Shown here piece after piece: positions 6,981 through 22,466 of a DNA stretch of 64,000 nucleotides (positions are counted from its first letter, which is position 1; each line of letters starts with the position of its first letter). The position numbers and the translations under genes are program-made. Under the pieces are notes generated by a model that saw only the letters and a list, made by a program, of their open reading frames with translations, was not told the DNA's origin and did not search any database. Source of the DNA: Advenella incenata. Lineage in GTDB: Bacteria > Pseudomonadota > Gammaproteobacteria > Burkholderiales > Burkholderiaceae_B. The stretch is from assembly GCF_004217095.1 (NCBI RefSeq), contig NZ_SHKO01000002.1, positions 930,001 through 994,000 of the forward strand. The letters are read 5' to 3'.

Positions 6981-7421
6981 TCAGGCAGGTTCCGACCCGT
7001 TGATCAGCTTGCGCAGTATGGTGATTAATTGCTTGCGCTCTGTCTTGCTCAGATTTTCCATAATTCCCGCCTCGTGTTCTTTGGCTACGCGGCACAAATC
7101 GGCTGCCAGGGCCGTCCCCTTGCGCGTGTTGCGTACCATCGTCTGGCGCCGATCATCCGGCTCCTGTCTTCGTTCGATTAAACCATCCTGTTCCATACGT
7201 ACCAGCGCCTTGCTTAGCGTGGGCTGTTTCATGACGGCGTGGTAAGCCAGATCGGTAACCGATTCTTCGTGATTATTGTGCAGGCACGCGAGCACGCGCC
7301 ACTCTGTAACAGAGAGATCAGTCGTGTACAGGTACGTATAAAAGTCGGTGGAAACGGTATCGCTTGCGCGCCGCAACAAATATGCCAGATAGGTATCAAT
7401 AAAGCGATTGGATTGGCTCAC
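6981..7421 (-). CDS. MarR family regulator of the adjacent aromatic catabolism locus
   Basis: A 146-residue winged-helix protein of the MarR family. The DNA-binding region spans about residues 35-100, with the recognition helix in KQPTLSKALVRMEQDGLI and the wing RRQEPDDRRQ typical of the family. The C-terminal helix forms the dimer. It is divergent from the catabolic operon that starts at 7714, sharing an AT-rich 292-bp intergenic region, the usual arrangement for a MarR repressor released by the pathway substrate. A MarR protein in this position recalls the regulator of the Variovorax iad auxin locus; the ligand here (indole-3-acetate) is inference. Confidence 0.9.
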   Translation of the reverse strand: MSQSNRFIDTYLAYLLRRASDTVSTDFYTYLYTTDLSVTEWRVLACLHNNHEESVTDLAYHAVMKQPTLSKALVRMEQDGLIERRQEPDDRRQTMVRNTRKGTALAADLCRVAKEHEAGIMENLSKTERKQLITILRKLINGSEPA

Positions 7422-7583
7422 GTCTGTTCTGCTCCGGAAGTAGATACTGCATGCACAAAATTAAGCATGTTTTGCTACGGTGCGCCATTTTAGTGCTTTG
7501 CACGAAAAATATATTTTCTTCCTCAAATACTAGTAGTACTGAGTGACTTGCCCTACTGCGTCCCTTTATTATGATCTCAATAC

Positions 7584-7595
7584 ATGAATTTTCAT
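7584..7595. promoter_or_regulatory. Candidate MarR operator (ATGAA-TT-TTCAT)
   Basis: A perfect 5-bp inverted repeat with a 2-bp spacer lies ten bases upstream of the candidate -35 box of the catabolic operon, in the region shared with the divergent marR gene. A related repeat, ATGACA-GA-TGTCAT, lies upstream of the Rieske alpha gene. Size and position suit a MarR dimer; the assignment rests on symmetry alone. Confidence 0.35.
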
Positions 7596-7604
7596 ATAAA
7601 TTTA

Positions 7605-7633
7605 TTGACGCACTTTTATTTTAAACTTAAACT
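7605..7633 (+). promoter_or_regulatory. Candidate sigma-70 promoter of the catabolic operon
   Basis: TTGACG (7605-7610), a 17-base spacer and TAAACT (7628-7633) approximate the -35 and -10 consensus. They sit about 80 bases before the first gene start (7714), in an AT-rich stretch that contrasts with the surrounding coding DNA. The start at 7714 has the ribosome site AAAGGAG. Confidence 0.45.
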
Positions 7634-7713
7634 AAATTAAACCCTATGCAATCGCTATTGTGATTGTTGGGATCCACGGTCACCTGTCCCCGCCCAGGGA
7701 AAGGAGCAAATGA

Positions 7714-9885
7714 ATGGCAGAACGGTCCTTCAAAAAGGAAGTGCAGACGCTAAAGATTGGCGCTGGTGAAGAGTTTCGCGGCGAAGGCATACTGGCCATC
7801 ACCAAGGCACTTTTGCAGTCGGGCGTGGGCTATGTCGCCGGCTATCAGGGAGCACCGATTTCGCATTTGATGGACGTGCTGGCGGACGCGGATGACATTC
7901 TGAGAGACCTGGGTATTCATTTTGAGTCCAGTGCATCGGAGGCGACCGCTGCAGCCACGCTATCGGCATCTGTGATGTATCCGATCCGCGGCGCTGTAAC
8001 GTGGAAGTCAACAGTGGGAACCAATGTAGCTTCGGACGCGTTGGCTAATCTGGCTTCGGGCGGCGTCACTGGCGGTGCCCTGGTCATCGTCGGTGAGGAT
8101 TATGGCGAGGGGTCGTCCATCATGCAGGAGCGAACCCATGCCTTTGCCATGAAATCACAAATGTGGATGCTGGATCCGCGGCCGAATCTTACCTGCATGG
8201 TGAATATGGTGGAAACGGGATTTCGTCTGTCTGAAGCCAGCAGTACACCCGTGTTTTATCAGGTTCGTATTCGAGGTTGCCACGTGCATGGCCGCTTTAT
8301 CGCCAGGGACAACGTCAAACCGCCGTTTACGCTTGCGCAGGCGCTGGAAACCCCACGGCGTGATGCTGGTCGTATCGTATTGCCACCTGCCGCCTACGAA
8401 CATGAACAGGAAAAAGTGCGCGACCGCTGGCCTGCCGCCGTCAAATTCCTTAAGGACAATCAGGTCAACGAGTTCTTTGACGGCAGCCGCAAGGACATCG
8501 GCATCATAGTACAGGGTGGTTTGTACAACAACACCATTCGCGCATTGGGCCTGCTGGGCAAGGCTGATCATTTTGGCAAAAGCGAGCTGCCGATATATGT
8601 ATTGAATGCGGTCTATCCGCTGATCAACGAAGAAGTGCAGGATTTTTGCCGGGATAAAAAAGCTGTGCTGCTGATAGAGGAAGGTCAGCCTGACTATATT
8701 GAACAGAATATTCACAGCATATTGCGCAAAGCAGGGATCGGGACGCCCTTGTCGGGTAAGGATGTACTGCCCATGGCGGGTGAGTATACGGTGCAAACGA
8801 TCCGCGATGGCCTGCGGAACTTTCTGGATAATCTTCCGTCACCACCGGATTCGATGCCAGACTCTGAACCAGCAGCAAAAATTGTGGTTGAAAAGCCGCT
8901 TGTTTTTACGCAGGTGCGTCGTCAGCAGCTGGCCGACATTATTCCGCCACGCCCGGCGGGACTGTGTACAGGTTGTCCGGAGCGTCCAGTGTTTTCTGCG
9001 CTAACACTGGCACAGGAAAAGTTGGGAGAACACCATATTTCCTGTGATATCGGCTGTCATCTTTTTTCCATTTTGCCCCCCTTCAATCTGGGTGCAACCA
9101 CCATGGGATATGGGCTGGGGGCGTCCAGCGCGTCTGCGTTCAACGTGAAGGCAAGCAAGCGTTCCATTTCGATCATGGGCGATGGTGGCTTCTGGCATAA
9201 CGGGCTGACTTCCGGCGTCGGCAACGCCGTCTATAACAAGCATGATGGTGTGATTATCATTGTGGACAATTACTATTCGTCAGCAACCGGCGGGCAGGAT
9301 ATCCTGTCGTCCCGGGCCAACAATGACAACCGATCTACTAATCATCCAATAGAACAGGCGGTCAGGGGTGTGGGCGTCAAGTGGGTGCGAGTCATTGATC
9401 ACACCTACGACGTATCAAAAATGCGTGCGCTGATTGAAGATGCGCTTACCTGTGCAGATACGGGCCCCAAGGTGATTATTGCCCAGTCCGAATGCATGCT
9501 GAACCTGCAGCGACGCGAAAAGCCGGTGTTCAAGAAGGATGTCGCGCAAGGCGTACGCCGTGTCAGGCAACAGTTTGGAGTGGACAAGGATATCTGTTCC
9601 GGTGACCATGCCTGTATCCGGCTTTCGGGCTGTCCCTCGCTGACTCTGAAAGACAATGATAATCCCCTGAAGGATGATCCAGTCGCCCATGTCGAGAGCA
9701 GTTGTGTCGGCTGTGGTCATTGTGGCGAGATCGCCCATGAGGCTGTGCTGTGTCCTTCTTTTTATCGCGCCGATATTATTCATAATCCAGGTAAGAAAGA
9801 TCACTTTTTTGGGCGAATGCGCAGCAAACTGATAGGTCGACTCCAGCAGCGGCATCGTGAGCGCATCGAGCGAGTCACGATATGA
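7714..9885 (+). CDS. Indolepyruvate ferredoxin oxidoreductase-type alpha subunit (TPP, Fe-S)
   Basis: A 723-residue 2-ketoacid:acceptor oxidoreductase alpha subunit, like IorA. The N-terminal pyrimidine-binding half (YVAGYQGAPIS at about 39-49) is followed by a central CTGCPERP (about 416) and the TPP motif GDGGFWHN (about 489) with its closing Asn in VDNYY. The C-terminal 100 residues carry clustered Cys (SCVGCGHCGE and others) for iron-sulfur clusters. These enzymes decarboxylate aryl 2-keto acids, forming acyl-CoA and passing electrons to ferredoxin. In this locus the natural substrate would be isatinate (2-aminophenylglyoxylate), giving anthraniloyl-CoA or anthranilate; that is inference. 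It overlaps the beta gene by ATGA. Confidence 0.9.
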   Translation: MAERSFKKEVQTLKIGAGEEFRGEGILAITKALLQSGVGYVAGYQGAPISHLMDVLADADDILRDLGIHFESSASEATAAATLSASVMYPIRGAVTWKSTVGTNVASDALANLASGGVTGGALVIVGEDYGEGSSIMQERTHAFAMKSQMWMLDPRPNLTCMVNMVETGFRLSEASSTPVFYQVRIRGCHVHGRFIARDNVKPPFTLAQALETPRRDAGRIVLPPAAYEHEQEKVRDRWPAAVKFLKDNQVNEFFDGSRKDIGIIVQGGLYNNTIRALGLLGKADHFGKSELPIYVLNAVYPLINEEVQDFCRDKKAVLLIEEGQPDYIEQNIHSILRKAGIGTPLSGKDVLPMAGEYTVQTIRDGLRNFLDNLPSPPDSMPDSEPAAKIVVEKPLVFTQVRRQQLADIIPPRPAGLCTGCPERPVFSALTLAQEKLGEHHISCDIGCHLFSILPPFNLGATTMGYGLGASSASAFNVKASKRSISIMGDGGFWHNGLTSGVGNAVYNKHDGVIIIVDNYYSSATGGQDILSSRANNDNRSTNHPIEQAVRGVGVKWVRVIDHTYDVSKMRALIEDALTCADTGPKVIIAQSECMLNLQRREKPVFKKDVAQGVRRVRQQFGVDKDICSGDHACIRLSGCPSLTLKDNDNPLKDDPVAHVESSCVGCGHCGEIAHEAVLCPSFYRADIIHNPGKKDHFFGRMRSKLIGRLQQRHRERIERVTI

Positions 9886-11420
9886 CCGGGTTGACGCACA
9901 CGACGGACGCCGAACCCCTGAAAATAGCCATTCTTGCCATGGGAGGACAGGGCGGTGGCGTGCTGGCAGACTGGCTGGTGGACCTGGCAGAGCGCGCCGA
10001 CTGGTATGCACAAAGCACGTCTGTTCCCGGCGTCGCACAGCGAACCGGGGCTACGATCTATTACGTGGAGCTTTTTCCTCCACCCTGGTCCATGGAACAA
10101 CCGCCAGTGCTTGCACAGATGCCGACGCCAGGCGATGTGGATGTGGTGATCAGCGCCGAGCTGATGGAAGCGGGGCGCGCTATTTTGCGCGGCATTGTGA
10201 CGCCGGACCGGACAACGCTGCTCACTTCGATACACCGCAGTTATGCTATTAGTGAAAAAAGTCATCCGTCTAACGGCATTGTGGATGCGGCGCAGGTCAT
10301 TGCAGCAGGCAACGATACAGCCAAACATTTCTATGCCGCAGATTTGCAGCGTATAGCCGAAAGCTGTGGCAGTGTGATCAGTGCCAGCCTGTTCGGCGCC
10401 CTGGCAGGTACTGGCGTATTGCCTTTTTCACGGGAGCAATTCGAACAGACCATTCGACTTGGCAAAGTAGGGGTCGACTCGAGCCTGTCGGCATTTGACG
10501 CAGGCTGGAATGAGATTCGCTCGGCGCAGATGCAGCATGATACCCAGACTGCCAATACGCGCTTCCCGGCGTTGCCGGATAAAGCAGATACGGCTGGTGG
10601 GCAGATGCTGTTGGACAATCTGCGATCACGATTTCCCGTCGTACTGCAGCCGGTGGTCCTGGCAGGCTTGAGGCATCTGCTGGATTTTCAGGACGCTGAT
10701 TATGCCCATGCATACCTGAACCGCATTGAACATATATTCAATCTTGACAGTGCCGCAGACGGCCAGTCACGGGGTTGGACGCTGACCTGGCAGTTTGCCC
10801 GCTACCTGGCCACCGCTATGGCCTACGACGATGTCATCAAGGTCGCTGACTTGAAGATCCGGGAAGCGCGGCTGCAGCATATATCGAAGGAAGTGAGACT
10901 GGAGCAGGGGCAGATGCTGGATGTGGCAGATTATATGCATCCGAGGTTTGAAGAGGTCTGTGGCACCATGCCCGAGCGTCTCGGGCGCTGGATGGAGCAA
11001 TCCTTTCTGCGCAACTGGACGACTCCCTTTTTCAGAAAAGGACGTCATATCAGAACCAGTCATTTGAGCGGATATCTGCTGTTATATGTACTGGCCTCGC
11101 GCAGGTCCACACGGACTGCGACGCTCCGACATGCGCAGGAAATGAAATCAATTGATCAATGGACAAAAAAAATTGAAGCCGCACTTGAAACGGACTATGA
11201 GTTTGCCGTTACCGTGGTCAAGTCACGCCGGCTGGTCAAGGGGTATAGCGATACCCACGCACGCAGCAGTGGCAGGTTCAGCCAATTGATGAAAGCGGCC
11301 GAGGGGCTAAGTAGGAGGCCGGATGCAGCCGCGCAGTTTCAGGTGCTATACGAAGCCGCATTAAACGATGTCAAGGGCGAGCGGTTGCAGGCGGCGCTGT
11401 CAGCCATGCCAGCGATATGA
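9882..11420 (+). CDS. Indolepyruvate ferredoxin oxidoreductase-type beta subunit, long form
   Basis: A 512-residue partner of the preceding alpha subunit. Residues about 12-200 form the gamma-type 2-oxoacid oxidoreductase domain (ILAMGGQGGGVLADWL at about 18-33, SVPGVAQRTGATIYY at about 47-61). The remaining 300 residues are the helical extension found in long aerobic IorB proteins, rich in Arg and Leu and lacking clear motifs. The start overlaps the alpha stop (ATGA at 9882), implying a fixed subunit ratio. The reductase downstream starts within its stop codon, so all three are coupled and the reductase could exchange electrons with this complex or serve the Rieske oxygenase. Confidence 0.88.
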   Translation: MTGLTHTTDAEPLKIAILAMGGQGGGVLADWLVDLAERADWYAQSTSVPGVAQRTGATIYYVELFPPPWSMEQPPVLAQMPTPGDVDVVISAELMEAGRAILRGIVTPDRTTLLTSIHRSYAISEKSHPSNGIVDAAQVIAAGNDTAKHFYAADLQRIAESCGSVISASLFGALAGTGVLPFSREQFEQTIRLGKVGVDSSLSAFDAGWNEIRSAQMQHDTQTANTRFPALPDKADTAGGQMLLDNLRSRFPVVLQPVVLAGLRHLLDFQDADYAHAYLNRIEHIFNLDSAADGQSRGWTLTWQFARYLATAMAYDDVIKVADLKIREARLQHISKEVRLEQGQMLDVADYMHPRFEEVCGTMPERLGRWMEQSFLRNWTTPFFRKGRHIRTSHLSGYLLLYVLASRRSTRTATLRHAQEMKSIDQWTKKIEAALETDYEFAVTVVKSRRLVKGYSDTHARSSGRFSQLMKAAEGLSRRPDAAAQFQVLYEAALNDVKGERLQAALSAMPAI

Positions 11421-12415
11421 CGGTAATGACTAGGGGAAAAAATACAGTGGAAACGCTCCAGTTGCGCGTAAAGGAAACAGAAAACCTGACCGAGCAGATT
11501 CGCAAGATCGTGCTGGAACATGTCGACGGTCTGCCGTTGCCGGCAGCAAAGCCCGGGGCGCATGTTCGCGTACATATCGGTGGGGCTGCCGACGACACCC
11601 GGGCCTACTCGCTGCTGATGCTAAACGGAAATAACGATGACCAAACACATTTGCAATACGAGATCGCGGTAAAGCGTGAAGACACAGGAAGTGGGGGCTC
11701 CCGCTACATGCATGTCTTGAAAGTTGGGGACATCGTGGCGTGTGACCCGCCGCGCAATGATTTCATGCTGGACCCGGCAGATCAGGCCGCTCCGGTCCTG
11801 CTGGCCGGTGGTATCGGTATCACCCCTATATTTGCCATGGCTGGATCGCTCTGGCGCGATGGGCGGCCATTTCATCTGCATTATGCCGGACGTGATAAAT
11901 CCCAGATGGCGCTGTTAAAGGAACTGCACACCATCGCTGGCGATGGTCTATGGATTCACCTGGATCAGCAGGATTCGCAACTGGATATCAAGGCTATCGT
12001 GCAGTCTATGAATGCCGATCAGCATTTGTATGTATGCGGCCCGACAGGCTTGTTGGATGCGGCACTTGCAATAGCAAAGGAAGAAGGATTGCCGGCAGCC
12101 CGGGTGCATTTCGAGCTGTTCAGCAATTCGGCAGCCAAAGCGGATGCGGGCAGTTTCCAGGTACGGCTGGCGCAGTCGGGAAAAATATATGTGGTTCCAC
12201 CGGGCAAAAGTATTCTGGAGGTATTGCAGGAGCAGGGAGAAGACCCGCTGTGTGACTGTTGCCGTGGCGAATGCGGGGTATGTCAGGTCGGCGTGCTGGA
12301 AGGAGAGCCCGATCATCGCGATTATGTTCTGTCCGATGCCGAGAAGGCTGCAGGCAAGCTGATGCAGATCTGCGTATCGCGGTCGAAATCGGAGGTTTTA
12401 GTGCTGGATTTGTAA
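11417..12415 (+). CDS. Flavin reductase with C-terminal [2Fe-2S] ferredoxin domain (oxygenase reductase)
   Basis: A 332-residue phthalate dioxygenase reductase/VanB-type protein: an N-terminal flavin domain (RAYSL at about residue 59), an NAD(P)H domain (GGIGITPIFAMA at about 131) and a C-terminal plant-type ferredoxin domain whose cluster Cys lie in LCDCCRGECGVC with a later QICVS. It moves electrons from NAD(P)H to the Rieske centre of the oxygenase encoded just downstream. The initial ATG overlaps the previous stop; a later in-frame ATG four codons on is possible. Seen as IadC-like in arrangement, from memory of the Variovorax locus. Confidence 0.9.
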   Translation: MTVMTRGKNTVETLQLRVKETENLTEQIRKIVLEHVDGLPLPAAKPGAHVRVHIGGAADDTRAYSLLMLNGNNDDQTHLQYEIAVKREDTGSGGSRYMHVLKVGDIVACDPPRNDFMLDPADQAAPVLLAGGIGITPIFAMAGSLWRDGRPFHLHYAGRDKSQMALLKELHTIAGDGLWIHLDQQDSQLDIKAIVQSMNADQHLYVCGPTGLLDAALAIAKEEGLPAARVHFELFSNSAAKADAGSFQVRLAQSGKIYVVPPGKSILEVLQEQGEDPLCDCCRGECGVCQVGVLEGEPDHRDYVLSDAEKAAGKLMQICVSRSKSEVLVLDL

Positions 12416-12502: not shown

Positions 12503-13852
12503 ATGTCAGCCAGAAAGTCCGCGAACGACTACAAAATGAATCCTGATGCCGTGCAGGCGCTGGTTCGCGAGCGTGAGGTGCATCGGGATCTTTACATTGA
12601 CGAGGATATCTTTGATCTGGAGATGTCGCATCTTTTTGCGTCGACCTGGATATTTGTGGGTCATGAAAGTCAGATCCCGAACGTGGGCGATTACTATACG
12701 ACCACGGTAGGAAATGAGCCGGTTGTAATGGTGCGTCACACCGATAAAACCGTTAAGGTGCTCTATAACCGCTGCCCCCATCGTGGCGTGAAGGTGGCGG
12801 GTGACTTGTGTGGCAATACCGGAAAGTTTTTTCGCTGCCCCTATCACGCCTGGACCTTCCGGACGGATGGAAAACTGCTCGCAATCCCGCTCAAAAGCGG
12901 CTATGAGAATGCCAGGCTTGATACATGCGATGCCGCCAAAGGGATGGTCGCAATTGACAATGTGCACGATTACCGTGGATTCATTTTTTGCCGGCTGAGC
13001 AACGACGGGGTGTCTTTTGAGGCTTTCTTCGGGGAATCTTTGTCCACTATCGACAATATGATTGACCGTTCGCCGGAAGGCCGGCTGCAGGTTGAGGGTG
13101 GCATATTCCGTTATGTTCATAATTGCAATTGGAAAATGCTTGTGGACAATCAGACAGACACCTGCCACCCCATGGTGGCACATGAATCGTCGGCAGGTAC
13201 GGCAGTTCAGGTCTGGGAGGAGGCGCCTGAAGGTACGCCCAGGCCGATGTCGGTGGAGCTGTTCGCTCCATTTATGTCGTCGTACGAGTTTTTTGACAAG
13301 ATGGGTATTCGGGTCTGGGAAAACGGCCACGGTCATACGGGGGTGAGCGATTCGATTCACGCTGCCTATTCGGATATTCCGGGTTACTGGGATGCCATGA
13401 CTGCTGCCTATGGTGAAGCGCGCGCCGCGCAGATTCTGGGCGATGTCCGCCACAACACCGTGTATTTTCCCAATATCCTGGTCAAAGGACCCATACAAAC
13501 CCTGCGGCTGTTCAAGCCGGTTTCCGCGGGAGCCACAATGGTCGAATCCTGGACGTTCCGGCTGGTGGGTGCACCCGATCTGCTGTTTGAGCGCAGCCTG
13601 ATGTATAACCGGCTGATCAATGCGCCGACGTCTGTCGTCGGCCATGATGATCTGGAAATGTATGAGCGGTCGCAGGAGGTGCTGCATGCGCGCAGCCACG
13701 AGTGGGTAAATTTTGCACGGCTGTATGATCCGGCAGAGGCAGGGCAGCGCAATGTCATCACTCACGGCACCAGCGAATGGCAGATGCGCAATCAATATCG
13801 GGCATGGCTGCGTTTTATCAAACCTGCGCAGAACCAAGGGGCCGGTATATGA
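12503..13852 (+). CDS. Rieske aromatic-ring-hydroxylating oxygenase, alpha subunit
   Basis: A 449-residue catalytic subunit. The Rieske [2Fe-2S] ligands are visible as C91-x-H93 and C112-x2-H115 (RCPHRG and RCPYHAW). The mononuclear iron site follows in NWKMLVDNQTDTCHPMVAH, giving H222 and H227 with the bridging D219. With the beta subunit and the upstream reductase it should insert O2 into an aromatic ring; in this context the likely target is the C2-C3 bond of an indole acetic acid. The 87-bp gap ahead of it is the widest early in the operon and carries an inverted repeat, so it may have its own promoter. Corresponds in position to the IadD role. Confidence 0.93.
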   Translation: MSARKSANDYKMNPDAVQALVREREVHRDLYIDEDIFDLEMSHLFASTWIFVGHESQIPNVGDYYTTTVGNEPVVMVRHTDKTVKVLYNRCPHRGVKVAGDLCGNTGKFFRCPYHAWTFRTDGKLLAIPLKSGYENARLDTCDAAKGMVAIDNVHDYRGFIFCRLSNDGVSFEAFFGESLSTIDNMIDRSPEGRLQVEGGIFRYVHNCNWKMLVDNQTDTCHPMVAHESSAGTAVQVWEEAPEGTPRPMSVELFAPFMSSYEFFDKMGIRVWENGHGHTGVSDSIHAAYSDIPGYWDAMTAAYGEARAAQILGDVRHNTVYFPNILVKGPIQTLRLFKPVSAGATMVESWTFRLVGAPDLLFERSLMYNRLINAPTSVVGHDDLEMYERSQEVLHARSHEWVNFARLYDPAEAGQRNVITHGTSEWQMRNQYRAWLRFIKPAQNQGAGI

Positions 13853-14334
13853 CTGAACAGGATTTGATCGATTTCGTTTACTACGAGGCCCAGTTGATCG
13901 ATGAGTTGCGCCTGGACCAATGGGTAGAACTCTTTACGGATGACGGTTATTACTGGATGCCCCTGCACCGCGGCCAGACGGATACGCGATTGCAGGCCTC
14001 GCTGATGTACGAGGACAAGCTGCTGCTGAAGGTCAGGGCCGAGCGCTTGACCGGGAAACGCACGTTTTCGCAGCAACCAGTGAGCTATTGCCATCATCTG
14101 TTACAGAGACCGCAGATCAGACACAATGATCAGGGGCACGACCCGCAGAAAGGCGTCTATGTGGTGCGAACGGCATTTCATTATATCGAGACCCGACAGG
14201 ACGATCAGCGTCTGTATGCCGGGTGGTCGACGCATACACTGGTGGACGAAGCCGATGGCTTGCGCATTCGCTTGAAGAAAGTCGAACTGGTCAATCCCGA
14301 TGCAGCCTTTGGCAGCATTCAGTTGTTTATGTGA
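13849..14334 (+). CDS. Rieske aromatic-ring-hydroxylating oxygenase, beta subunit
   Basis: A 161-residue small subunit of the SnoaL/NTF2-like fold used by ring-hydroxylating dioxygenases. The start is the ATG at 13849 that overlaps the alpha stop (ATGA); an upstream in-frame ATG at 13777 would lie deep inside the alpha gene. Family features include the early QDLIDFVYYEAQLID helix, the WVELFTDDGYYWMPL strand region and the closing RLKKVELVN. It is structural, stabilising the alpha3-beta3 oxygenase. Corresponds in position to the IadE role. Confidence 0.92.
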   Translation: MTEQDLIDFVYYEAQLIDELRLDQWVELFTDDGYYWMPLHRGQTDTRLQASLMYEDKLLLKVRAERLTGKRTFSQQPVSYCHHLLQRPQIRHNDQGHDPQKGVYVVRTAFHYIETRQDDQRLYAGWSTHTLVDEADGLRIRLKKVELVNPDAAFGSIQLFM

Positions 14335-14341
14335 GCGCGCA

Positions 14342-15982
14342 GTGATTCCTCAGACCGCCCAAACTGTTTATGACGCTTTTGCACTGACTGCACAGGCCAG
14401 CCCCGACAAGCCCTTTCTGATGGTATTGCCAGAGACGGCCCACAAATACGGAACCAGCGCTGGCCAGTTCAGCTACGGCGAGGTGCTGACGCAGGTGCAT
14501 CAATGGCGTGATGCCTATTGTTCGGCGGGCTATGCGGTGGGAGACCGGGTGGCATTGCTGCTTGAGAACCGGCTGTCTTTCTTTCTGCACTGGTTCGCCC
14601 TGAATGCACTGGGTGTCTCGGTCGTGCCTGTGAATGCCGATCTGCGTCTGGCAGAGTTGCAGTATCTGATCAGCCATTCCGAAGTCAGTCTTGTCATTGC
14701 CATTGAAAGCCATCACGATCTAATGCGTGAAGCCAGCACCACTGCCGGAATGTCCGTGCCGGTGATATCTCCACAAGAGCTGCCGCCTGCGCGACGCGAT
14801 GACAAACGTGATAACCGCAAGCCGGGGCCGGATACGGAATGCGCCTTGCTGTATACCTCGGGAACGACAGGGCAGCCCAAGGGTTGTGTATTGTCGAACC
14901 AATATTTTTTGCATGCTGGCCAGTGGTATGCAAGTACCGGCGGCCTGGCCGGCATTCGCATGGGTGAAGAGCGAATGCTGACGCCCTTGCCTCTGGTGCA
15001 CATGAATGCGATGGCCTATTCTGTCATGGCGATGGTCCTGAGCGCGGGTTGCCTGATTCTGCTGGACCGGTTTCACCCGCGCTCCTGGTGGTCATCGGTC
15101 AGAGACAGCGGGGCGACTATCGTGCATTACCTGGGTGTGATGCCCGCCATACTGGACAAGTTGCCTGCCGACCCGCAAGACCGGGAACATTGCGTCCGTT
15201 TCGGTTTTGGCGCCGGGGTGGACAAAAAGCTTCATGCAGATTTTGAACAACGCTTCGGATTCCCACTATTGGAAGCCTGGGCGATGACAGAAACCGGCGC
15301 CGGAGCAGTGATTATGGCAAACCGTGAACCTCGCTTTGTGGGTACCAGCTGTATTGGAATAGAGAGGGAAGACGTCAGGGTCAGCATTGTCGATGAGCAC
15401 GGACGCGAGGTTTGTGCAGGTGAGCAGGGCGAACTTTGGGTGTGTCACGCAGGCGCCAATCCGCGCTTCGGTTTTTTTTCGCACTATCTCAAGGATACGG
15501 CTGCCACAGAGGCTGCCTGGCAGGATGATTGGTTTAAAACCGGGGATATTGTTCGCAGAAATAAGGATGGCTATCTGGTTTTCGTTGATCGCAAGAAAAA
15601 CGTGATCCGGCGCAGTGGCGAAAATATTGCTGCGGTCGAGGTGGAGGGCGCATTGGCACGTCATCCGATGGTGCAGGCAGTCTCTGTTGCCGCTGTGCCT
15701 GATGATGTCAGGGGAGACGAAGTGCTGGCGTGCATCGTGCTGTCGCCTGCGGTGTCCGATCGAGCTGATCCGGTGGCGCTGGCCGGCGAACTGGTGACTT
15801 GGTCTTTGTCGCAACTGGCCTATTACAAGGTGCCTGGATATGTAAGTTTTGTCAACGAGCTCCCCCTGACTTCCACCAATAAAATCCAGCGTGGTGCCTT
15901 GCGCATGCTGGCATTTGAGTTGATATCCGGCGGCCAGGCCATCAATACCTGCCATCTGAAAAAGCCGGGGGGACGCACATGA
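14342..15982 (+). CDS. AMP-dependent acyl/aryl-CoA ligase
   Basis: An adenylate-forming ligase of 546 residues from GTG 14342, eight bases after the previous stop; an ATG at 14300 would overlap the oxygenase gene by 35 bases. The phosphate loop YTSGTTGQPKG is at about residue 170, the A5 motif EAWAMTETGAG at about 310, A7 DWFKTGDIVR at about 396 and the hinge DRKKNVIRRSGENI at about 415; the final catalytic Lys is expected in TSTNKIQRG. It would activate the carboxylate of a ring-oxidised acid to its CoA thioester, the form needed by the thiolase-like protein that starts within its stop codon. Exact substrate is inference. Confidence 0.9.
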   Translation: MIPQTAQTVYDAFALTAQASPDKPFLMVLPETAHKYGTSAGQFSYGEVLTQVHQWRDAYCSAGYAVGDRVALLLENRLSFFLHWFALNALGVSVVPVNADLRLAELQYLISHSEVSLVIAIESHHDLMREASTTAGMSVPVISPQELPPARRDDKRDNRKPGPDTECALLYTSGTTGQPKGCVLSNQYFLHAGQWYASTGGLAGIRMGEERMLTPLPLVHMNAMAYSVMAMVLSAGCLILLDRFHPRSWWSSVRDSGATIVHYLGVMPAILDKLPADPQDREHCVRFGFGAGVDKKLHADFEQRFGFPLLEAWAMTETGAGAVIMANREPRFVGTSCIGIEREDVRVSIVDEHGREVCAGEQGELWVCHAGANPRFGFFSHYLKDTAATEAAWQDDWFKTGDIVRRNKDGYLVFVDRKKNVIRRSGENIAAVEVEGALARHPMVQAVSVAAVPDDVRGDEVLACIVLSPAVSDRADPVALAGELVTWSLSQLAYYKVPGYVSFVNELPLTSTNKIQRGALRMLAFELISGGQAINTCHLKKPGGRT

Positions 15983-17154
15983 ACCTGCCAGCTTCCTACG
16001 AGGGCGTCGTTCTGACCATGCCGGTCACGGTGCCGTACGTCAGGTATTCGATCGAGAGCGCCCATTTTTGGCTCGGACGATCATTAAAAGGCCTGCTTGA
16101 TGGCACTGGCTTGCCGTTGTCAAAAATTGACGGACTGTGCGTGTCCAGCTTCAGTCTAGGCCCGGATTCCGCTGTGGGCCTGACCCAGCATTTCGGTGTT
16201 TCACCGCGCTGGCTGGATCATATTCCAATGGGTGGCGCCAGTGCCATTGTTGCCTTGCGCCGCGCCGCCAGGGCAGTGCAGGCCGGTGATGCCAGTGTTG
16301 TTGCGGTTATTACCGGAGATACCAATCATGTGGATTCTTTTCGCAGGACGCTCGGACAGTTTTCGCGCTTTGCACAGGATGCTACCTACCCGTATGGCGC
16401 AGGCGGACCCAATGCCAGTTTTGCGCTGCTGACCCGCCACTATATGAACACCACCGGCGCCACACGGGAGGATTTCGGCAAGCTGTGTGTAGCCCAGCGT
16501 GACAACGCACTGCGCTATCCGCCTGCGCTGATGAAAAAACCGCTGACGCTGGACGATTATTTGCAGGCCCGTCCGATAACCGAGCCGATTCATCTGTTCG
16601 ATTGCGTCATGCCTTGCGCCGGCGCGGAGTCGTTTCTGGTGATGAGCGAGGCTCAGGCGCGCAGCCTTGGCCTTGCTTTTGTACGTGTTCTGGGCACCAT
16701 AGAACGGCATAACGGCTGGCCTGACGATGTTATCCAGTCGCGCGGAGGCTGGACACAGGACTGCAAATCGCTGTATGACCAGGCAGGGGTTGGCGTAGAG
16801 GAGATGGATTTTCTGCAGGCTTATGACGATTATCCGGTTATCAACATGATGCAGTTGGAAAATCTGGGGTTTTGCGAAGCGGGCGCCGGTCCCGAATTTG
16901 TTCGCACCCATTCGTTTACCGTGGATGGTTCCTGCCCTCTCAATACGTGTGGCGGACAGTTGTCTGCCGGGCAGGCGGGCGCGGCCGGAGGCACGCTGGG
17001 CATGAACGAGGCCATCCGGCAACTGACGGGACGGGCAGACAGGACGCAAGTTGCCGCAGCGCGCATCGGCATGGTCAGCGGGTTCGGAATGATTAACTAT
17101 GATCGTGGGTTATGCACAGCAGCCGCGATTCTGCAAAGTGGAGCGTCGGCATGA
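15979..17154 (+). CDS. SCP2-type thiolase-like protein lacking the nucleophilic Cys (candidate retro-aldolase)
   Basis: A 391-residue thiolase-superfamily protein of the lipid-transfer (Ltp2) branch. At the place of the thiolase nucleophile it reads HIPMGGASAI (residues 81-90) with no Cys. The loop that normally reads GH in catalytic thiolases is SAGQAG within CPLNTCGGQL (about 317-332). Ltp2-type proteins with the same loss form complexes with DUF35 proteins and act as acyl-CoA retro-aldolases in steroid side-chain removal. A DUF35 protein is encoded next door with an ATGA overlap, so the same chemistry is likely here: cleaving a 3-hydroxyacyl-CoA to a ketone and acetyl-CoA. Function is inference; family membership is clear. 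Confidence 0.82.
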   Translation: MNLPASYEGVVLTMPVTVPYVRYSIESAHFWLGRSLKGLLDGTGLPLSKIDGLCVSSFSLGPDSAVGLTQHFGVSPRWLDHIPMGGASAIVALRRAARAVQAGDASVVAVITGDTNHVDSFRRTLGQFSRFAQDATYPYGAGGPNASFALLTRHYMNTTGATREDFGKLCVAQRDNALRYPPALMKKPLTLDDYLQARPITEPIHLFDCVMPCAGAESFLVMSEAQARSLGLAFVRVLGTIERHNGWPDDVIQSRGGWTQDCKSLYDQAGVGVEEMDFLQAYDDYPVINMMQLENLGFCEAGAGPEFVRTHSFTVDGSCPLNTCGGQLSAGQAGAAGGTLGMNEAIRQLTGRADRTQVAAARIGMVSGFGMINYDRGLCTAAAILQSGASA

Positions 17155-18398
17155 CGGACCCTTTACGCAAGCCTTCAAGAAAAAATCCGGTTGAGCGCAC
17201 CCGCAAGCCAACCTTGCCTGCAGCTACGCGCAGTCGCACTTTCCATGGTATGACGCGCGCGGCGGCAGAAGGCAGATTTGAATTACAAGTGTGTCACGAG
17301 TGCCGGCAGGTTCAGTATCCGCCGCGCGACGTCTGCGGATATTGCCTGTCGCATCGTCTGCAGTGGTCCGAAGTGGACCGTAGCGCTCGACTGGTGGCCA
17401 CCACGGTGTTGCATCACAGTAATGATGTGTATTTCAGGGAACGTCTTCCCTGGCGGATCGGCACCGTGCAAATGACAGTGGGGCCGGTTGTGATAGCCCA
17501 TGTGCATCCGGCCTGTCAAGAGGGTATGCCGGTGCAGTTGGAGATGAAACTGGACAGGAGCGGTAACGCCGCCCTGTTTGCCGTGCCCCAGGAGTTACCT
17601 CCTCACTATCAGGATGATCCGATGATGCGTGAAATGACCAATAATGTGAAGTTCAGGCGTGTGCTGGTGACTGACGGCAAGTCGGGATTGGGAATGGCCA
17701 TGATACGGACCTTGCTGCAGACTGATGCATCGATTGTTTTTTTGGGTGATCCACAACCATGGCGACCTTCACCCGCATTCAATACGCTGCTGACTGACAG
17801 CAGGGTACAGGTGCATTCCATGGATGTCACTGACAGTGATTCTCTGGAACGGGTTGCCGCTGAAATCGGCGGCAAGGTAGACGTACTGATCAACACGGCA
17901 GATTTGCTGCGTGACGGTGGCATGCTGGGTACAAACACTATCAGTACCGCAAGCGACATGTTCGATGTTAGTTGCCTGGGGTTGCTCCGTCTGGCCCAGA
18001 CATTTGGCGGGGCGATGGCGGGCCGGGCCGCCGATGGGGTCAACAGCGCATCGGCCTGGGTGAACATATTTTCAGTCCATGCCATGGCCAGTCTGCCCAG
18101 TCGGGGAGTATGGTCTGCAGCCCAGGCAGGCGGCCTGTCGCTGTCCCATTGCCTGCGTGCAGAGATGCAGATGGCCGGCATCAGGGTCATGAATGTATTT
18201 ACCGGTCCGGTGGATTACGAATGGGAGCAGACAACCCCGCCGCCACGGGTCGCACCGTCCCAGATTGCCCGGCAGATTGTCCAGGCGCTGGCAAACGGGC
18301 TGGAAGATGTTTATGTCGGAGATGTGGCAAATGACATCAGGGAACGGCTGCGCAGTAATGCCAAGGCGCTGGAGCGCGAACTGGCCGGCGGCAATTGA
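17151..18398 (+). CDS. DUF35 Zn-ribbon/OB-fold protein fused to a degenerate short-chain dehydrogenase
   Basis: A 415-residue fusion; the ATG at 17151 overlaps the thiolase-like stop. Residues 40-150 are a DUF35 protein: a rubredoxin-like zinc ribbon with C48-x2-C51 and C62-x2-C65, then an OB fold. Residues about 168-390 resemble an SDR Rossmann domain, but each hallmark is altered: the nucleotide loop is TDGKSGLG rather than TGxxxGIG, the NAG motif reads NTA (248-250), and the YxxxK pair is W321...Q325. The SDR half is therefore probably not an active dehydrogenase and may be a scaffold. DUF35 partners are needed by Ltp2-type aldolases, which fits its neighbour. Confidence 0.85.
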   Translation: MTDPLRKPSRKNPVERTRKPTLPAATRSRTFHGMTRAAAEGRFELQVCHECRQVQYPPRDVCGYCLSHRLQWSEVDRSARLVATTVLHHSNDVYFRERLPWRIGTVQMTVGPVVIAHVHPACQEGMPVQLEMKLDRSGNAALFAVPQELPPHYQDDPMMREMTNNVKFRRVLVTDGKSGLGMAMIRTLLQTDASIVFLGDPQPWRPSPAFNTLLTDSRVQVHSMDVTDSDSLERVAAEIGGKVDVLINTADLLRDGGMLGTNTISTASDMFDVSCLGLLRLAQTFGGAMAGRAADGVNSASAWVNIFSVHAMASLPSRGVWSAAQAGGLSLSHCLRAEMQMAGIRVMNVFTGPVDYEWEQTTPPPRVAPSQIARQIVQALANGLEDVYVGDVANDIRERLRSNAKALERELAGGN

Positions 18399-19264: not shown

Positions 19265-19990
19265 ATGGAACGCGAAGTCGCAGTCGTAACGGGAGGTAGC
19301 GTGGGTATCGGCGCTGCCATATGCAACTCCCTGCTTGAGCGGGGCATGGAGGTTATTTCGCTGGCGCGGCGTTCGCCCGGATTCAGCCATCCCCGGTTGC
19401 AGACCAGAAGTGTGGATCTGCTCGATCGCGGAGCGGTCAGGGAGGTCGCGCGTGACGTAGCCGACACTTACCCGGTCAGTCATTTTGTGCATAACGCCGG
19501 GGTTATCCGCCCTAATCTGATTGAGCAGGTGAGCGACGAAGACATGGATGCGCTTGCGCAGTTGCATTTGACCAGTGCCCTGACATTGACCCAGGCTTTT
19601 ATCCCGTCCATGAAAAAAAACAAATACGGACGGATTGTATTGATTTCGTCTCGGGGTGCGCTTGGCCTGCAGACACGCACCGCTTACGCAGCCACTAAGG
19701 CTGGGATGATTGGGATGGGACGAACCTGGGCGCTGGAGCTGGCAGGATTTGGCATAACGGTTAATGTCGTGGCGCCCGGACCGATAGCGTCAGACATGTT
19801 TTACGACGTGATCGAACCGGGCAGCGAGCGCGAAAAATCCCTGGCGGCGGCTATTCCGGTGGGTCGTATCGGCATGCCAGAGGATGTGGCCCAGACAGTG
19901 GCATTTTTTTGCAGCGCTGCATCCGGTTTCGTGACCGGGCAGGTGCTGTATGTGTGTGGTGGCAGCAGCATCGGTTCCATCACTATTTAA
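19265..19990 (+). CDS. Short-chain dehydrogenase/reductase (active type)
   Basis: A 241-residue classical SDR with intact motifs: TGGSVGIG (9-16) for NAD(P), N77-A-G, catalytic S128/S129, Y141 and K145 (YAATK), and PG near residue 172. Ribosome site AGGAG is well placed before ATG 19265. In a Rieske dioxygenase pathway an SDR usually oxidises the cis-diol; here it could convert a 2,3-dihydroxyindoline to the 2-oxo (dioxindole) form, or act on a FabG-like hydroxyacyl substrate. It contrasts with the inactive-looking SDR half of the 17151 gene. A 69-bp gap separates it from the hydrolase gene. Confidence 0.88.
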   Translation: MEREVAVVTGGSVGIGAAICNSLLERGMEVISLARRSPGFSHPRLQTRSVDLLDRGAVREVARDVADTYPVSHFVHNAGVIRPNLIEQVSDEDMDALAQLHLTSALTLTQAFIPSMKKNKYGRIVLISSRGALGLQTRTAYAATKAGMIGMGRTWALELAGFGITVNVVAPGPIASDMFYDVIEPGSEREKSLAAAIPVGRIGMPEDVAQTVAFFCSAASGFVTGQVLYVCGGSSIGSITI

Positions 19991-20025: not shown

Positions 20026-20081
20026 GTGGATTCATTTGTTTTTTGATCGTCGGTTTGCGTGACGGTCAAACAGGAGGAACT

Positions 20082-21233
20082 ATGAAGCTGCTGTCAACCA
20101 TTGTGTTCGCTGTGGGTATGTGTGCATCGGTGGATGCATTTGCAAAAACTGTCACGGTGGGATTTATTTCGTCATTGTCGGGGCCGATTTCATCCCTTGG
20201 TATTCCATACGCCAATGGCGCGATTGCCGGGCACAAGGCGATAGGAAAATCAGCGGATGCCGATATCAAACTGATACGCCTGGATGATGCTTCTGATCCC
20301 GCTACGGCGGCGCGTAACGCCCGCAAGCTGATCAATGAAGACCAGGTTGATGTGCTGATGGGAACGTCAGGCGTACCCGGTACGATGGCCATCGCTGCTG
20401 TCGCGAACGAAAGCAAGGTGCCGTTCATTGCCATATCACCGGTAGCCAATGTGTCGCCGGCCACTGCTCAATGGATGGTGAGCGTCGCCCAGCCAACCGA
20501 GCTGATGATCAATGCGGTGGTGGATCATATGAAAGCTCATGGTGTGAAAACCGTGTCCTACATCGGGTTTTCGGACGCCTGGGGAGATTTGGCCTACGAC
20601 GCATTGAAAAAGCATGCGGCACAGGTCGGCATAGAACTGCTTAATGACGAACGCTATTCACGTACTGATGCGTCGGTGACCGGTCAGATATTGAAGATCC
20701 GTGCGAAAAAGCCCGATGCCATTCTGGCGGGAACTTCGGGTACGCCTGCAGCACTGCCTTATCTGGAGCTGAAAAAACTCGGCTACAAGGGCAAAGTATA
20801 TGGCACGCATGGTTTGATCAATAGTGATTTCATTCGTGTTGTGGGCAAGGCCGGCGACGATATCCTGGCCCCGACCGGGCCGGTGACGGTTGCCGAGCAG
20901 TTGCCCGATACCAATCCGGTAAAGAAAGTGGCACTGGCTTACCGCGAGGCATTTCAGGCGGCCTTTCCCAAGGGGTCACCGGACGTATTTTCAGCCTGGT
21001 CCTACGACGCCTGGCTTTTGCTGGTTTCGGCAACAGCCGAGGCACAGAAACACGCGGAACCCGGAACACCAACCTATCGACAGGCAGTGATGGATGCCAT
21101 TTTCAATACACACGAACTGGCGGGAACGCATGGAGTATATAACTACAAACGCGGCAGCCCTTTCGGAACAGATGAACGGGCGCGGGTCGTAGTCAGGTTG
21201 CTAGGCGGTAAATGGAAGCTGGAAAACGAGTAA
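20082..21233 (+). CDS. Branched-chain amino acid/aromatic-type ABC binding protein 1
   Basis: A 383-residue periplasmic binding protein of the LivJ-like (type 1 Leu/Ile/Val-binding) family. The ATG at 20082 follows AGGAGG at ideal spacing. The signal peptide is MKLLSTIVFAVG to about residue 21 (VDAFA). The mature protein opens with VTVGFISSLSGPISSLGIPY, the ligand-binding start of this family. Its paralogue follows directly; they share motifs such as YIGFSDAWGDL. Family members near aromatic catabolism genes bind aromatic acids, so uptake of the pathway substrate is the likely role. The gene is flanked by hairpins on both sides. Confidence 0.9.
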   Translation: MKLLSTIVFAVGMCASVDAFAKTVTVGFISSLSGPISSLGIPYANGAIAGHKAIGKSADADIKLIRLDDASDPATAARNARKLINEDQVDVLMGTSGVPGTMAIAAVANESKVPFIAISPVANVSPATAQWMVSVAQPTELMINAVVDHMKAHGVKTVSYIGFSDAWGDLAYDALKKHAAQVGIELLNDERYSRTDASVTGQILKIRAKKPDAILAGTSGTPAALPYLELKKLGYKGKVYGTHGLINSDFIRVVGKAGDDILAPTGPVTVAEQLPDTNPVKKVALAYREAFQAAFPKGSPDVFSAWSYDAWLLLVSATAEAQKHAEPGTPTYRQAVMDAIFNTHELAGTHGVYNYKRGSPFGTDERARVVVRLLGGKWKLENE

Positions 21234-21241
21234 ACAGGTTC

Positions 21242-21270
21242 TCGGTCCTGCGTGAGTACGGCAGGACCGA
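21242..21270 (+). other. Intercistronic hairpin (perfect 10-bp stem) between two binding-protein genes
   Basis: TCGGTCCTGC (21242-21251) pairs exactly with GCAGGACCGA (21261-21270) around a 9-base loop. It begins eight bases after the first binding-protein stop and is not followed by a T run, so it is not a normal terminator. Such hairpins after binding-protein genes commonly protect the upstream mRNA from 3' exonucleases and raise its expression over the membrane components. Confidence 0.65.
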
Positions 21271-21296
21271 TCCATACAGAAAATCAGGAGAATAAA

Positions 21297-22466
21297 ATGC
21301 AACATTGGCTTAAAACGGCGGTGCTGATCGGCATTCTGAGCGGCGTGGGATCGCCAGGTTTTGTGCATGCCGATACCATCAAGATTGGACTGATCACCGC
21401 GCTAACCGGACCGGGTTCGTCAATCGGCATTCCTTATGAATTAGGCGCCAAAGCAGGGCAGGCGATGATTCCCGACATTGAGGGAAATAAGCTGGAGCTG
21501 ATTGTACTGGACGATGCCACGGATCCGTCGAGCGCAGCGCGCAATGCCAGGAAACTGACACAGGACAACAAGGTTGATATCCTGATCGGTTCCTCGAATG
21601 TGCCGGCAACGTTTGCTGCCTTACCGGTGGCTCGGGAGGCAGCAACGGCGCTGATCGGCATCAGTCCGGCCAGCACAACAGGAGAAAATGCAGCCTGGTA
21701 TGTGACAACTGCCCAGTCCGCGAAGTTGATGATCAGTGCCGTAGTTGGGCAGATGAAGCGCGATGGCGTCAGAACGGTTGGATATATTGGGTTTTCTGAT
21801 GCCTGGGGCGATCTGGTGTACGACAATCTTGTCAAGGAAGCTGACAGTGCCGGCATCAAGGTTGTGAGCAATGAACGCTATGCACGATCTGATTCATCTG
21901 TGAACGGGCAGATTCTGAAGATTATCGCCAAGCGACCTGATGCCGTGATGACCGGCGGCGCGGGAACACCGGGTGCATTGCCATACCTGGCTTTGAAAGA
22001 CAGGAATTTCAAGGGCAAACTGTATGGCGCGCATTCACTGATCAACCCTGATTTCATTCGTGTTGCAGGTTCCTCTGCTGAAGGGCTGGTAGCACCGACC
22101 GGGCCGGTGATTGTGGCAGAACAGTTGCCGCCCGATCATCCCGTCAAGCAGATGTCTGGCAAGTTTCACGACATTTTCCAGAAAACCAATGGCAAGCCGT
22201 CGACCGATGCCTATTCTGCCTATGCCTTTGACGCATGGCTGATTGCGGCAGCGGCAGCGAAAAAAGTCATTGCCGACGGCAAAGCCAAGCCAGGTACGCC
22301 GGCGTTTCGCGAAGCCCTGCGCGACGCCATCATGTCTGGTACCCAAGTGGCCGGCACGCACGGCGTCTATACGTTCAAACAGGGCGATTCGTTCGGCAGC
22401 GATGAGCGTGGTCGTGTGCTGGTTCGTCTGGAAAAAGGCAAATGGAAATATATCCCCGAAAAATGA
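21297..22466 (+). CDS. Branched-chain amino acid/aromatic-type ABC binding protein 2
   Basis: A 389-residue paralogue of the preceding gene. The ATG at 21297 follows CAGGAG; an earlier in-frame ATG at 21252 lies inside the hairpin. The signal peptide ends near FVHA-DTIKIG. The mature N-terminus (IKIGLITALTGPGSSIGIPY) and the segment YIGFSDAWGDLVYD align closely with protein 1, showing an old tandem duplication. Two binding proteins feeding one permease set suggest different ligands or affinities, for example free auxin and a conjugate or another indole acid. Confidence 0.9.
   Translation: MQHWLKTAVLIGILSGVGSPGFVHADTIKIGLITALTGPGSSIGIPYELGAKAGQAMIPDIEGNKLELIVLDDATDPSSAARNARKLTQDNKVDILIGSSNVPATFAALPVAREAATALIGISPASTTGENAAWYVTTAQSAKLMISAVVGQMKRDGVRTVGYIGFSDAWGDLVYDNLVKEADSAGIKVVSNERYARSDSSVNGQILKIIAKRPDAVMTGGAGTPGALPYLALKDRNFKGKLYGAHSLINPDFIRVAGSSAEGLVAPTGPVIVAEQLPPDHPVKQMSGKFHDIFQKTNGKPSTDAYSAYAFDAWLIAAAAAKKVIADGKAKPGTPAFREALRDAIMSGTQVAGTHGVYTFKQGDSFGSDERGRVLVRLEKGKWKYIPEK

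Follow-up and report, generated by a model that had tools for sequence, protein, structure and literature searches.

The window examined here is a stretch of 64,000 nucleotides from Advenella incenata (assembly GCF_004217095.1, contig NZ_SHKO01000002.1, positions 930,001 to 994,000 of the forward strand). Its subject is the gene at 17151-18398, iadH, which encodes a DUF35 half, made of a zinc ribbon and an OB-fold, fused to an apparently dead short-chain dehydrogenase/reductase (SDR) half. The gene lies in an operon matching the iad locus for degradation of the auxin indole-3-acetic acid, directly between iadG, coding for an aldolase-like protein of thiolase fold, and iadI, coding for a protein that resembles isatin hydrolases (Table 1). 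By sequence and context, the alcohol dehydrogenase label appears wrong for IadH, which looks like the DUF35 subunit of a retro-aldolase.

Structure of the IadH fusion

The ATG of iadH at 17151 shares the bases ATGA with the stop of the upstream gene, iadG. A longer frame from 17112 is less likely, because most aligned orthologues start at the methionine encoded at 17151. Pfam profiles score above their cut-offs in both halves of the protein, zf-ChsH2 (E 2.2e-8) and OB_ChsH2_C (E 5.1e-8) in the N-terminal half and adh_short (E 1.3e-19) in the C-terminal half, and in a sequence comparison with solved structures IadH matches 6ok1_B at E 1.1e-5. The AlphaFold2 model, built with 32 sequences, is likewise two-part (mean predicted local distance difference test score, pLDDT, 80.7; predicted template modelling score 0.80), and its residues 164-414 match the SDR 5u4s with Z 31.2 and a root-mean-square deviation of 1.6 Å over 236 residues. 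The Foldseek and VIA lists for the model are dominated by SDRs and hardly probe the DUF35 half. The N-terminal half has the zinc ribbon and OB-fold of DUF35/ChsH2-type proteins, and the C-terminal half has the Rossmann fold of SDRs.

Two other hallmarks of classical SDRs, the TGxxxGxG cofactor loop and the Asn-Ser-Tyr-Lys tetrad, are missing from the C-terminal half. The loop reads TDGKSGLG (174-181), the first of its three glycines being absent and the other two present. At 248-251 NTAD stands where NNAG is usual, and the tetrad positions hold S274, S308, W321 and Q325, the serine being the sole tetrad residue retained. The frame, the fused architecture and the residues of the loop, the NAG motif and the Tyr and Lys positions had been given in the same way in the preliminary description; S274 and S308 are added here. 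The intact zinc ribbon it noted (C48, C51, C62, C65) is kept throughout the family, with all four cysteines in 112 of 112 orthologues.

Distribution and conservation of the altered SDR half

Counting the source genome each time, near-full-length matches to IadH were found in 12 of the 399 genomes from the order, in 82 of 268 from the family and in 8 of 398 from a phylum sample. Matches are also present in 46 plasmid records, 34 of them covering at least 80% of the query; four of the 46 were read for sequences. Among the best 80 of 445 candidates kept from the genome scan, the closest named relative is from Advenella (86%). The orthologue set comprises 112 sequences, 108 distinct ones from 129 loci and four from plasmids. 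All were gathered by similarity to full-length IadH, and relatives without an SDR half would escape such a search.

The first glycine of the loop is absent from the whole set of 112: at position 175, 102 sequences have Asp and 10 have Asn. Position 179 is Gly in only two, the Advenella protein being one, and position 181 is Gly in 108. Residues 174-177 follow the pattern T/S-D/N-x-K/R in every sequence. Since none has the first glycine, normal cofactor binding looks lost in all 112 orthologues, and a loss peculiar to Advenella is ruled out. The tetrad is far more variable. The Tyr position is W in 77, Y in 20, F in 11, H in 2 and A and T in one each; the Lys position is K in 58, Q in 33, M in 8, E in 6, H in 2, A in 2 and I, C and N in one each. 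Asn is found at position 274 in 86 and Ser at position 308 in 108. W321 and Q325, whose conservation in orthologues had been put forward as a check, are therefore ruled out as a conserved signature by the residue counts. A Ruegeria orthologue carries G-P-T-A at the four positions. Another orthologue (L013/L141 in our numbering of loci), 49% identical to Advenella IadH, has Phe at the Tyr position; it is taken as Variovorax because the IadD encoded beside it scores 978 bits against 7yls (it is also close to 9o71), and it does not come from the strain studied experimentally.

On a quick tree of 62 of the 112 orthologues (below 90% identity, motif columns excluded, 18 of 59 inner branches weakly supported), the minimum number of changes is 10 at the Tyr position, 13 at the Lys position and 10 at the Asn position, with only 2 at position 175. 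By these numbers the altered loop is maintained and the tetrad drifts. Judged from the alignment, the SDR defect is family-wide and consists of the loss of the first glycine together with tetrad drift. The conserved marks in the alignment are the altered loop at 174-177 and a group of newly fixed residues: R254, D295, G296, W358 and Q360, invariant in all 112, R292 in 111 and W204 in 110.

The nearest SDR kin found for the C-terminal half are PRK08264-type proteins (NF006118; PDB 5U4S), 24-30% identical in 11 loci (of 14 loci, 11 yielded a sequence). They have a similar C-terminal tail and, unlike IadH, stand alone without a DUF35 fusion; the first glycine is present in 11 of 11 and the Tyr in 9 of 11. 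IadH has lost G175, N177, R178, G179 and the A-R pair at 200-201, all of which are fixed in at least 10 of the 11 standalone proteins; judging by the SDR fold in general, the lost loop residues would bind NADP. IadH has in turn fixed D175, W204, R254, R292, D295, G296, W358 and Q360, each in at least 58 of 62 rows, of which 204, 292, 295 and 296 lie in stretches absent from the standalone SDRs. On the same general grounds, positions 175, 204, 254, 358 and 360 presumably surround the former cofactor and substrate cleft, and positions 292-296 presumably lie on the opposite side.

In 15 named Achromobacter loci the SDR half has a ratio of nonsynonymous to synonymous substitution rates (dN/dS) of 0.083 and the DUF35 half one of 0.085, compared with 0.103 for IadG, 0.072 for IadI and 0.066 for IadJ in the same loci. 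By this estimate purifying selection acts equally strongly on the two halves.

The orthologues in L137, L138 and L140 carry no annotation beyond SDR family NAD(P)-dependent oxidoreductase, which leaves their DUF35 half unnamed. In Agrobacterium pusense plasmid pR76 (L139, match at 9001-10245) the annotated iadH start, 9367, lies 366 bases inside the match, so that the zinc ribbon is omitted from the annotation.

The iad operon, IadG and IadI

The Variovorax auxin-degradation genes iadC to iadK (PMC12633357; PMC10374108; PMC9613470) have the same order as the genes of the window, where the C-D-E-F-G-H-I-J-K content and order are found, and IadH of V. paradoxus holds the same position in the same locus. 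IadD matches 9o71, the V. paradoxus IadDE entry, at E 2.6e-183 and 7yls at E 3.4e-182. The operon thus matches the iad locus and the gene matches iadH, an identity that had been missed at first and that suggests a concrete reaction. The active SDR that had been noted two genes later is IadJ, whose frame at 19265-19990 has intact TGGSVGIG, HNAG and YAATK motifs. ABC (ATP-binding cassette) transporter genes also lie beside the solute-binding proteins of the operon.

Table 1. Positions in the window of iadH, its parts and the neighbouring genes
Feature	Position	Strand	Basis
iadH, DUF35 - pseudo-SDR fusion, 415 aa	17151..18398	+	ORF, Pfam, AlphaFold2 model, orthologue alignment
zf-ChsH2 zinc ribbon, residues 37-70, Cys48/51/62/65	17259..17360	+	Pfam, alignment
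OB_ChsH2_C domain, residues 72-132	17364..17546	+	Pfam
SDR-fold half, residues 165-415	17643..18395	+	Pfam, model, structure match
Altered TGxxxGxG loop, TDGKSGLG, residues 174-181	17670..17693	+	alignment
NTAD replacing NNAG, residues 248-251	17892..17903	+	alignment
S274, catalytic Asn position	17970..17972	+	alignment
S308, catalytic Ser position, retained	18072..18074	+	alignment
W321 to Q325, catalytic Tyr and Lys positions	18111..18125	+	alignment
iadC, reductase	11417..12415	+	domain scan
iadD, Rieske oxygenase alpha subunit, best PDB matches 9o71 and 7yls	12503..13852	+	domain and PDB sequence scan
iadE, Rieske oxygenase beta subunit	13777..14334	+	domain scan
iadF, AMP-forming acyl-CoA ligase	14300..15982	+	domain scan
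iadG, thiolase-fold aldolase-like partner; YDDY, residues 282-285, at 16822-16833	15979..17154	+	domain, PDB, fold match
iadI, isatin hydrolase-like, cyclase family PF04199	18419..19195 (scanned from in-frame 18425)	+	domain and PDB match
iadJ, SDR with intact motifs	19265..19990	+	ORF translation, domain scan
Two ABC solute-binding proteins, iadK-like	20043..22466	+	second (21252-22466) Peripla_BP_6 by scan; first named by position and look
MarR-family regulator, divergent from operon	6981..7421	-	domain scan

The neighbourhood of iadH was surveyed in 94 loci with 94 distinct iadH sequences, a neighbour being counted as present when a tblastn match of at least 40% identity lay anywhere in the locus. 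A thiolase-fold gene, as expected for a DUF35 partner, is adjacent in 93 of the 94: iadG lies within 300 bp upstream, the remaining locus beginning at a contig end. Downstream, iadI lies within 300 bp in 91 of 94 (L064 has it at 330 bp, L114 at 3 kb and L115 has none). Where each side extends over at least 5 kb (75 loci), iadG is never missing, and adjoining iadI is seen in 72, iadF in 66, iadD in 60, iadJ in 58 and iorA in 55; the iorA count is a lower bound, since some loci end close to this gene. The G-H-I genes of Bradyrhizobium sp. BTAi1 (L121) have as neighbours a molybdenum hydroxylase-like gene and a coenzyme A (CoA) ligase; within this 21 kb locus there is no match to iadC-D-E and only a 29% match to iadJ. 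A gene of the Asp/Glu racemase family lies near iadG-H-I both in this locus (7557-8387) and in the Agrobacterium locus L139 (11057-11875), neither of which has iadC-D-E matches.

IadG sequences were taken from 142 matching loci, of which seven were too short, and 108 distinct ones were kept. YDDY at 282-285 is present in all 108, as is Gly at position 86; the aligned residue of 7yvy is a Cys, which we take to be the thiolase nucleophile. Two IadG orthologues carry a Cys two residues after this position. Among solved structures the closest in sequence are 9MYR (Sal, E 8.1e-47), 4u4e and 6OK1 (Ltp2), and by fold 9MYR again leads (Z 42.1), followed by 4u4e (40.6), 6OK1 (39.5) and BbsB (37.9), with canonical thiolases at about 30; in the IadG model 61 of 391 residues have pLDDT below 50, some of them near the expected active site. 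Catalysis in Sal is by Tyr302 and Cys304 of YDCY (PMC12329534), and in Ltp2 by Tyr294 of YDHF and by Tyr344 (PMC12329534; PMC11321319). The DUF35 domain that each of these enzymes docks is fused to the hydratase acting one step earlier (PMC12329534; PMC11321319). IadG has the thiolase fold without the nucleophilic Cys, the catalytic Tyr of the YDxY/F motif common to all three proteins and, as in Sal, both Gln of GGQLSxGQ. These residues and matches say that IadG would work like the Sal/Ltp2 aldolases, in agreement with the aldolase partner of the preliminary description, and the Gly at the nucleophile position together with Sal as nearest structure disfavours a thiolase, though 4u4e is close behind. 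IadG is not filed as a member of the Sal/Ltp2 group, because their known proton donor is absent and an Asp stands where Sal has Cys. In the order sample, clear IadG orthologues (above 560 bits) occupy 14 loci in 13 genomes, and IadH is found in 13 of these loci, the remaining one being in genome G368. Next to an IadG-like protein of lower similarity (G387, 400 bits), in a different gene context, lies a separate frame that is DUF35-like by eye.

IadI matches isatin hydrolases (5nmp at E 1.9e-109) and is a putative isatin hydrolase itself. For the iadI beside the Labrenzia iadH (L140) the match is to isatin hydrolase A, 5nnb (E 5.5e-176), and the two sequences differ at about 8 of 257 residues; the isatin hydrolases of Labrenzia aggregata and Ralstonia solanacearum are the subject of PMC6117287, taken here as the paper behind 5nnb. 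In PMC12633357 IadI is read as a possible broad-specificity amidase, and the full text does not contain the term isatin hydrolase.

Upstream of iadC, at 7714-11420 on the + strand, lies a pair of genes for an IorA/IorB-like thiamine-pyrophosphate oxidoreductase. The pair is a candidate for a step leading from isatinate towards anthranilate, because isatinate is an aryl-glyoxylate. Counting against this, iadC-K2 alone restored anthranilate in Variovorax (PMC12633357).

A proposed redox-free cleavage and its alternatives

In the published pathway the steps from dioxindole-3-acetate to anthranilate were assigned from annotation, and IadH of V. paradoxus is described as an annotated alcohol dehydrogenase (PMC12633357). 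No word starting with "aldol" occurs in the main text of that paper, and its account of IadH, in the parts covered here, mentions neither a DUF35 half nor a dead SDR half nor a retro-aldol reaction. Probably, in our judgement, IadG and IadH together form a redox-free retro-aldolase, with IadG catalytic, IadH its DUF35 subunit and the SDR half kept as a non-redox module. IadF would make the CoA ester of dioxindole-3-acetate, whose beta-carbon would carry a tertiary alcohol. Such a hydroxyl cannot be oxidised to a ketone, and a thiolysis route is on this reasoning disfavoured. IadG-IadH would instead break the C-C bond of dioxindole-3-acetyl-CoA by a retro-aldol reaction to give isatin and acetyl-CoA without a redox cofactor, Tyr282 of YDDY acting as the base and Asp284 probably, as a guess, as the proton donor. 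Retro-aldol cleavage would yield isatin directly, the substrate of an isatin hydrolase, and IadI would then hydrolyse it to isatinate. The SDR half of IadH would be a conserved pseudo-SDR with a structural or gating part in the complex. This proposal builds on the operon identity, the loss of the first glycine, the tetrad drift, the purifying selection, the IadG motif and the IadI match, all of them read from sequences, and would extend them to the reaction, the complex and the role of the SDR half. V. paradoxus mutants lacking iadH accumulate C10H9NO4, as do those lacking iadG (PMC12633357), which fits a need for both in cleavage.

Precedents for such an assembly come from steroid side-chain degradation, where the retro-aldolases Sal-Shy and Ltp2-ChsH2 (PMC12329534, PMC11321319; 9MYR, 6OK1) likewise join a thiolase-fold aldolase to a DUF35 partner that is fused to an enzyme domain. 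Their substrate, like the one proposed for IadG, is a CoA ester with a beta-hydroxyl, on ring C17 for Ltp2 (PMC12329534, PMC11321319). The fused domain there is a MaoC hydratase, in IadH a dead SDR, and the substrate is a steroid rather than the proposed oxindole. ChsH2 contains a non-catalytic MaoC domain (PMC11321319) and resembles IadH in carrying a dead enzyme domain on an aldolase-docking DUF35. It pairs, however, with the living ChsH1, whereas a live SDR was not constantly seen near IadH (iadJ in 58 of 75 loci). Another parallel is found among the Bbs proteins, in which BbsC is the dead subunit of BbsCD and BbsA is DUF35-like. They belong to anaerobic toluene degradation; the SDR BbsCD contains inactive pseudoenzyme subunits, and the thiolase BbsAB has a zinc-finger subunit (titles cited in PMC10818641; 7PXP). 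Unlike in IadG-IadH, these are separate proteins, and BbsAB is a thiolase. Among titles and abstract openings in the library searched for DUF35-SDR fusions, such pseudoenzymes and a retro-aldol step in auxin degradation, no description of any of these was recognised.

Several observations weigh against the retro-aldolase. The second structure nearest to IadG, 4u4e, is titled a putative thiolase and is almost as near as Sal. Neither Cys304 of Sal nor Tyr344 of Ltp2 has a counterpart in IadG, which has Asp284 and Gln332 instead (108 of 108 each). In the incomplete genome G368 (L198, 2570-2788) an IadG-like gene is followed by a short DUF35 frame matching IadH residues 43-115, with no SDR. For the steroid system the DUF35 domain is reported as unimportant for aldolase or hydratase activity (PMC11321319), and an IadH needed for cleavage would differ from it. 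The deletion phenotype is also unspecific, C10H9NO4 accumulating without iadF or iadI as well (PMC12633357). When iadI is missing, C8H7NO2 is reported as the product of IadF-G-H by reductive removal (PMC12633357); this compound is two hydrogens above isatin and counts against a step wholly free of redox chemistry. It could form when other enzymes reduce isatin, as the retro-aldol proposal must assume, or be the sign of a genuine reductive step.

The latter would suit IadH as a working dehydrogenase, as annotated, that reduces isatin to dioxindole or acts on a CoA intermediate, the accumulation being seen in strains with iadF-G-H but without iadI (PMC12633357). The model retains the SDR fold, 5u4s was solved with NADP despite a Leu aligned at the Tyr position, and a complete N-S-Y-K tetrad is present in four of the 112 orthologues (L015, L017, L020, L117), a further point against the redox-free proposal. 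Orthologues with YxxxK had been named as evidence that would overturn the dead SDR, and these four literally have it, but all four carry Asp175 and the first loop glycine is absent throughout the set. The Tyr is missing from 92 sequences and the Lys from 54, the Variovorax-type and Ruegeria orthologues being among the altered ones, and the loop residues of the standalone relatives are gone. A dehydrogenase is on this evidence quite improbable. Decay of the SDR half might explain the drift of the active site, where the tree requires no fewer than 10 changes for Tyr, 13 for Lys and 10 for Asn, but it was rejected on the dN/dS of 0.083, and the invariance of R254, D295, G296, W358 and Q360 and the presence of the SDR half throughout the orthologue set, albeit one gathered with full-length queries, make a remnant scarcely credible.

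Pairing of the pseudo-SDR with the active IadJ in a mixed oligomer, as in BbsCD or in ChsH2 with ChsH1, appears unlikely. It would be in keeping with iadJ lying two genes downstream and occurring in 58 of the 75 well-flanked loci, and with the dead-plus-live pairs of similar settings (PMC10818641; PMC11321319). However, 17 of the 75 have no iadJ at 40% identity or above, distant copies not being sought, while all 75 have iadG, and the published pathway places IadJ before the CoA ligase (PMC12633357). A version of the retro-aldolase proposal in which the dead cleft has been rebuilt to bind a ligand (the substrate, its CoA part or isatin), gating or channelling it from IadG to the isatin hydrolase, is possible but doubtful. 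Residues D175, W204, R254, W358 and Q360, fixed in IadH and absent from the standalone SDRs, presumably line that cleft, and iadI almost always adjoins iadH; R292, D295 and G296, on the presumed opposite side, are fixed as well, and a plug or a protein interface would leave the same sequence pattern. In its most specific form, the cleft would hold the CoA ester or isatin among these five residues and hand it to the isatin hydrolase, the side chain leaving as acetyl-CoA in one redox-free step; this is put forward rather tentatively. The SDR half as a conserved non-redox module is the best supported of these roles. The oxidoreductase function that the preliminary description had set aside is indeed unlikely, and a non-redox role fits, whether as scaffold or as gate.

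With the iad pathway root bacteria can clear auxin, and other soil strains have been equipped with it (PMC12633357). What is new here is a testable reaction assignment for a protein with a place in this known pathway, published previously as an annotated alcohol dehydrogenase. If the assignment is true, the "ketothiolase" IadG and the "alcohol dehydrogenase" IadH would be two subunits of a single redox-free enzyme, IadI would be an isatin hydrolase, and the side chain of auxin would be removed without a redox step. The pseudo-SDR of IadH also offers a natural case in which to ask what a conserved dead enzyme domain does.

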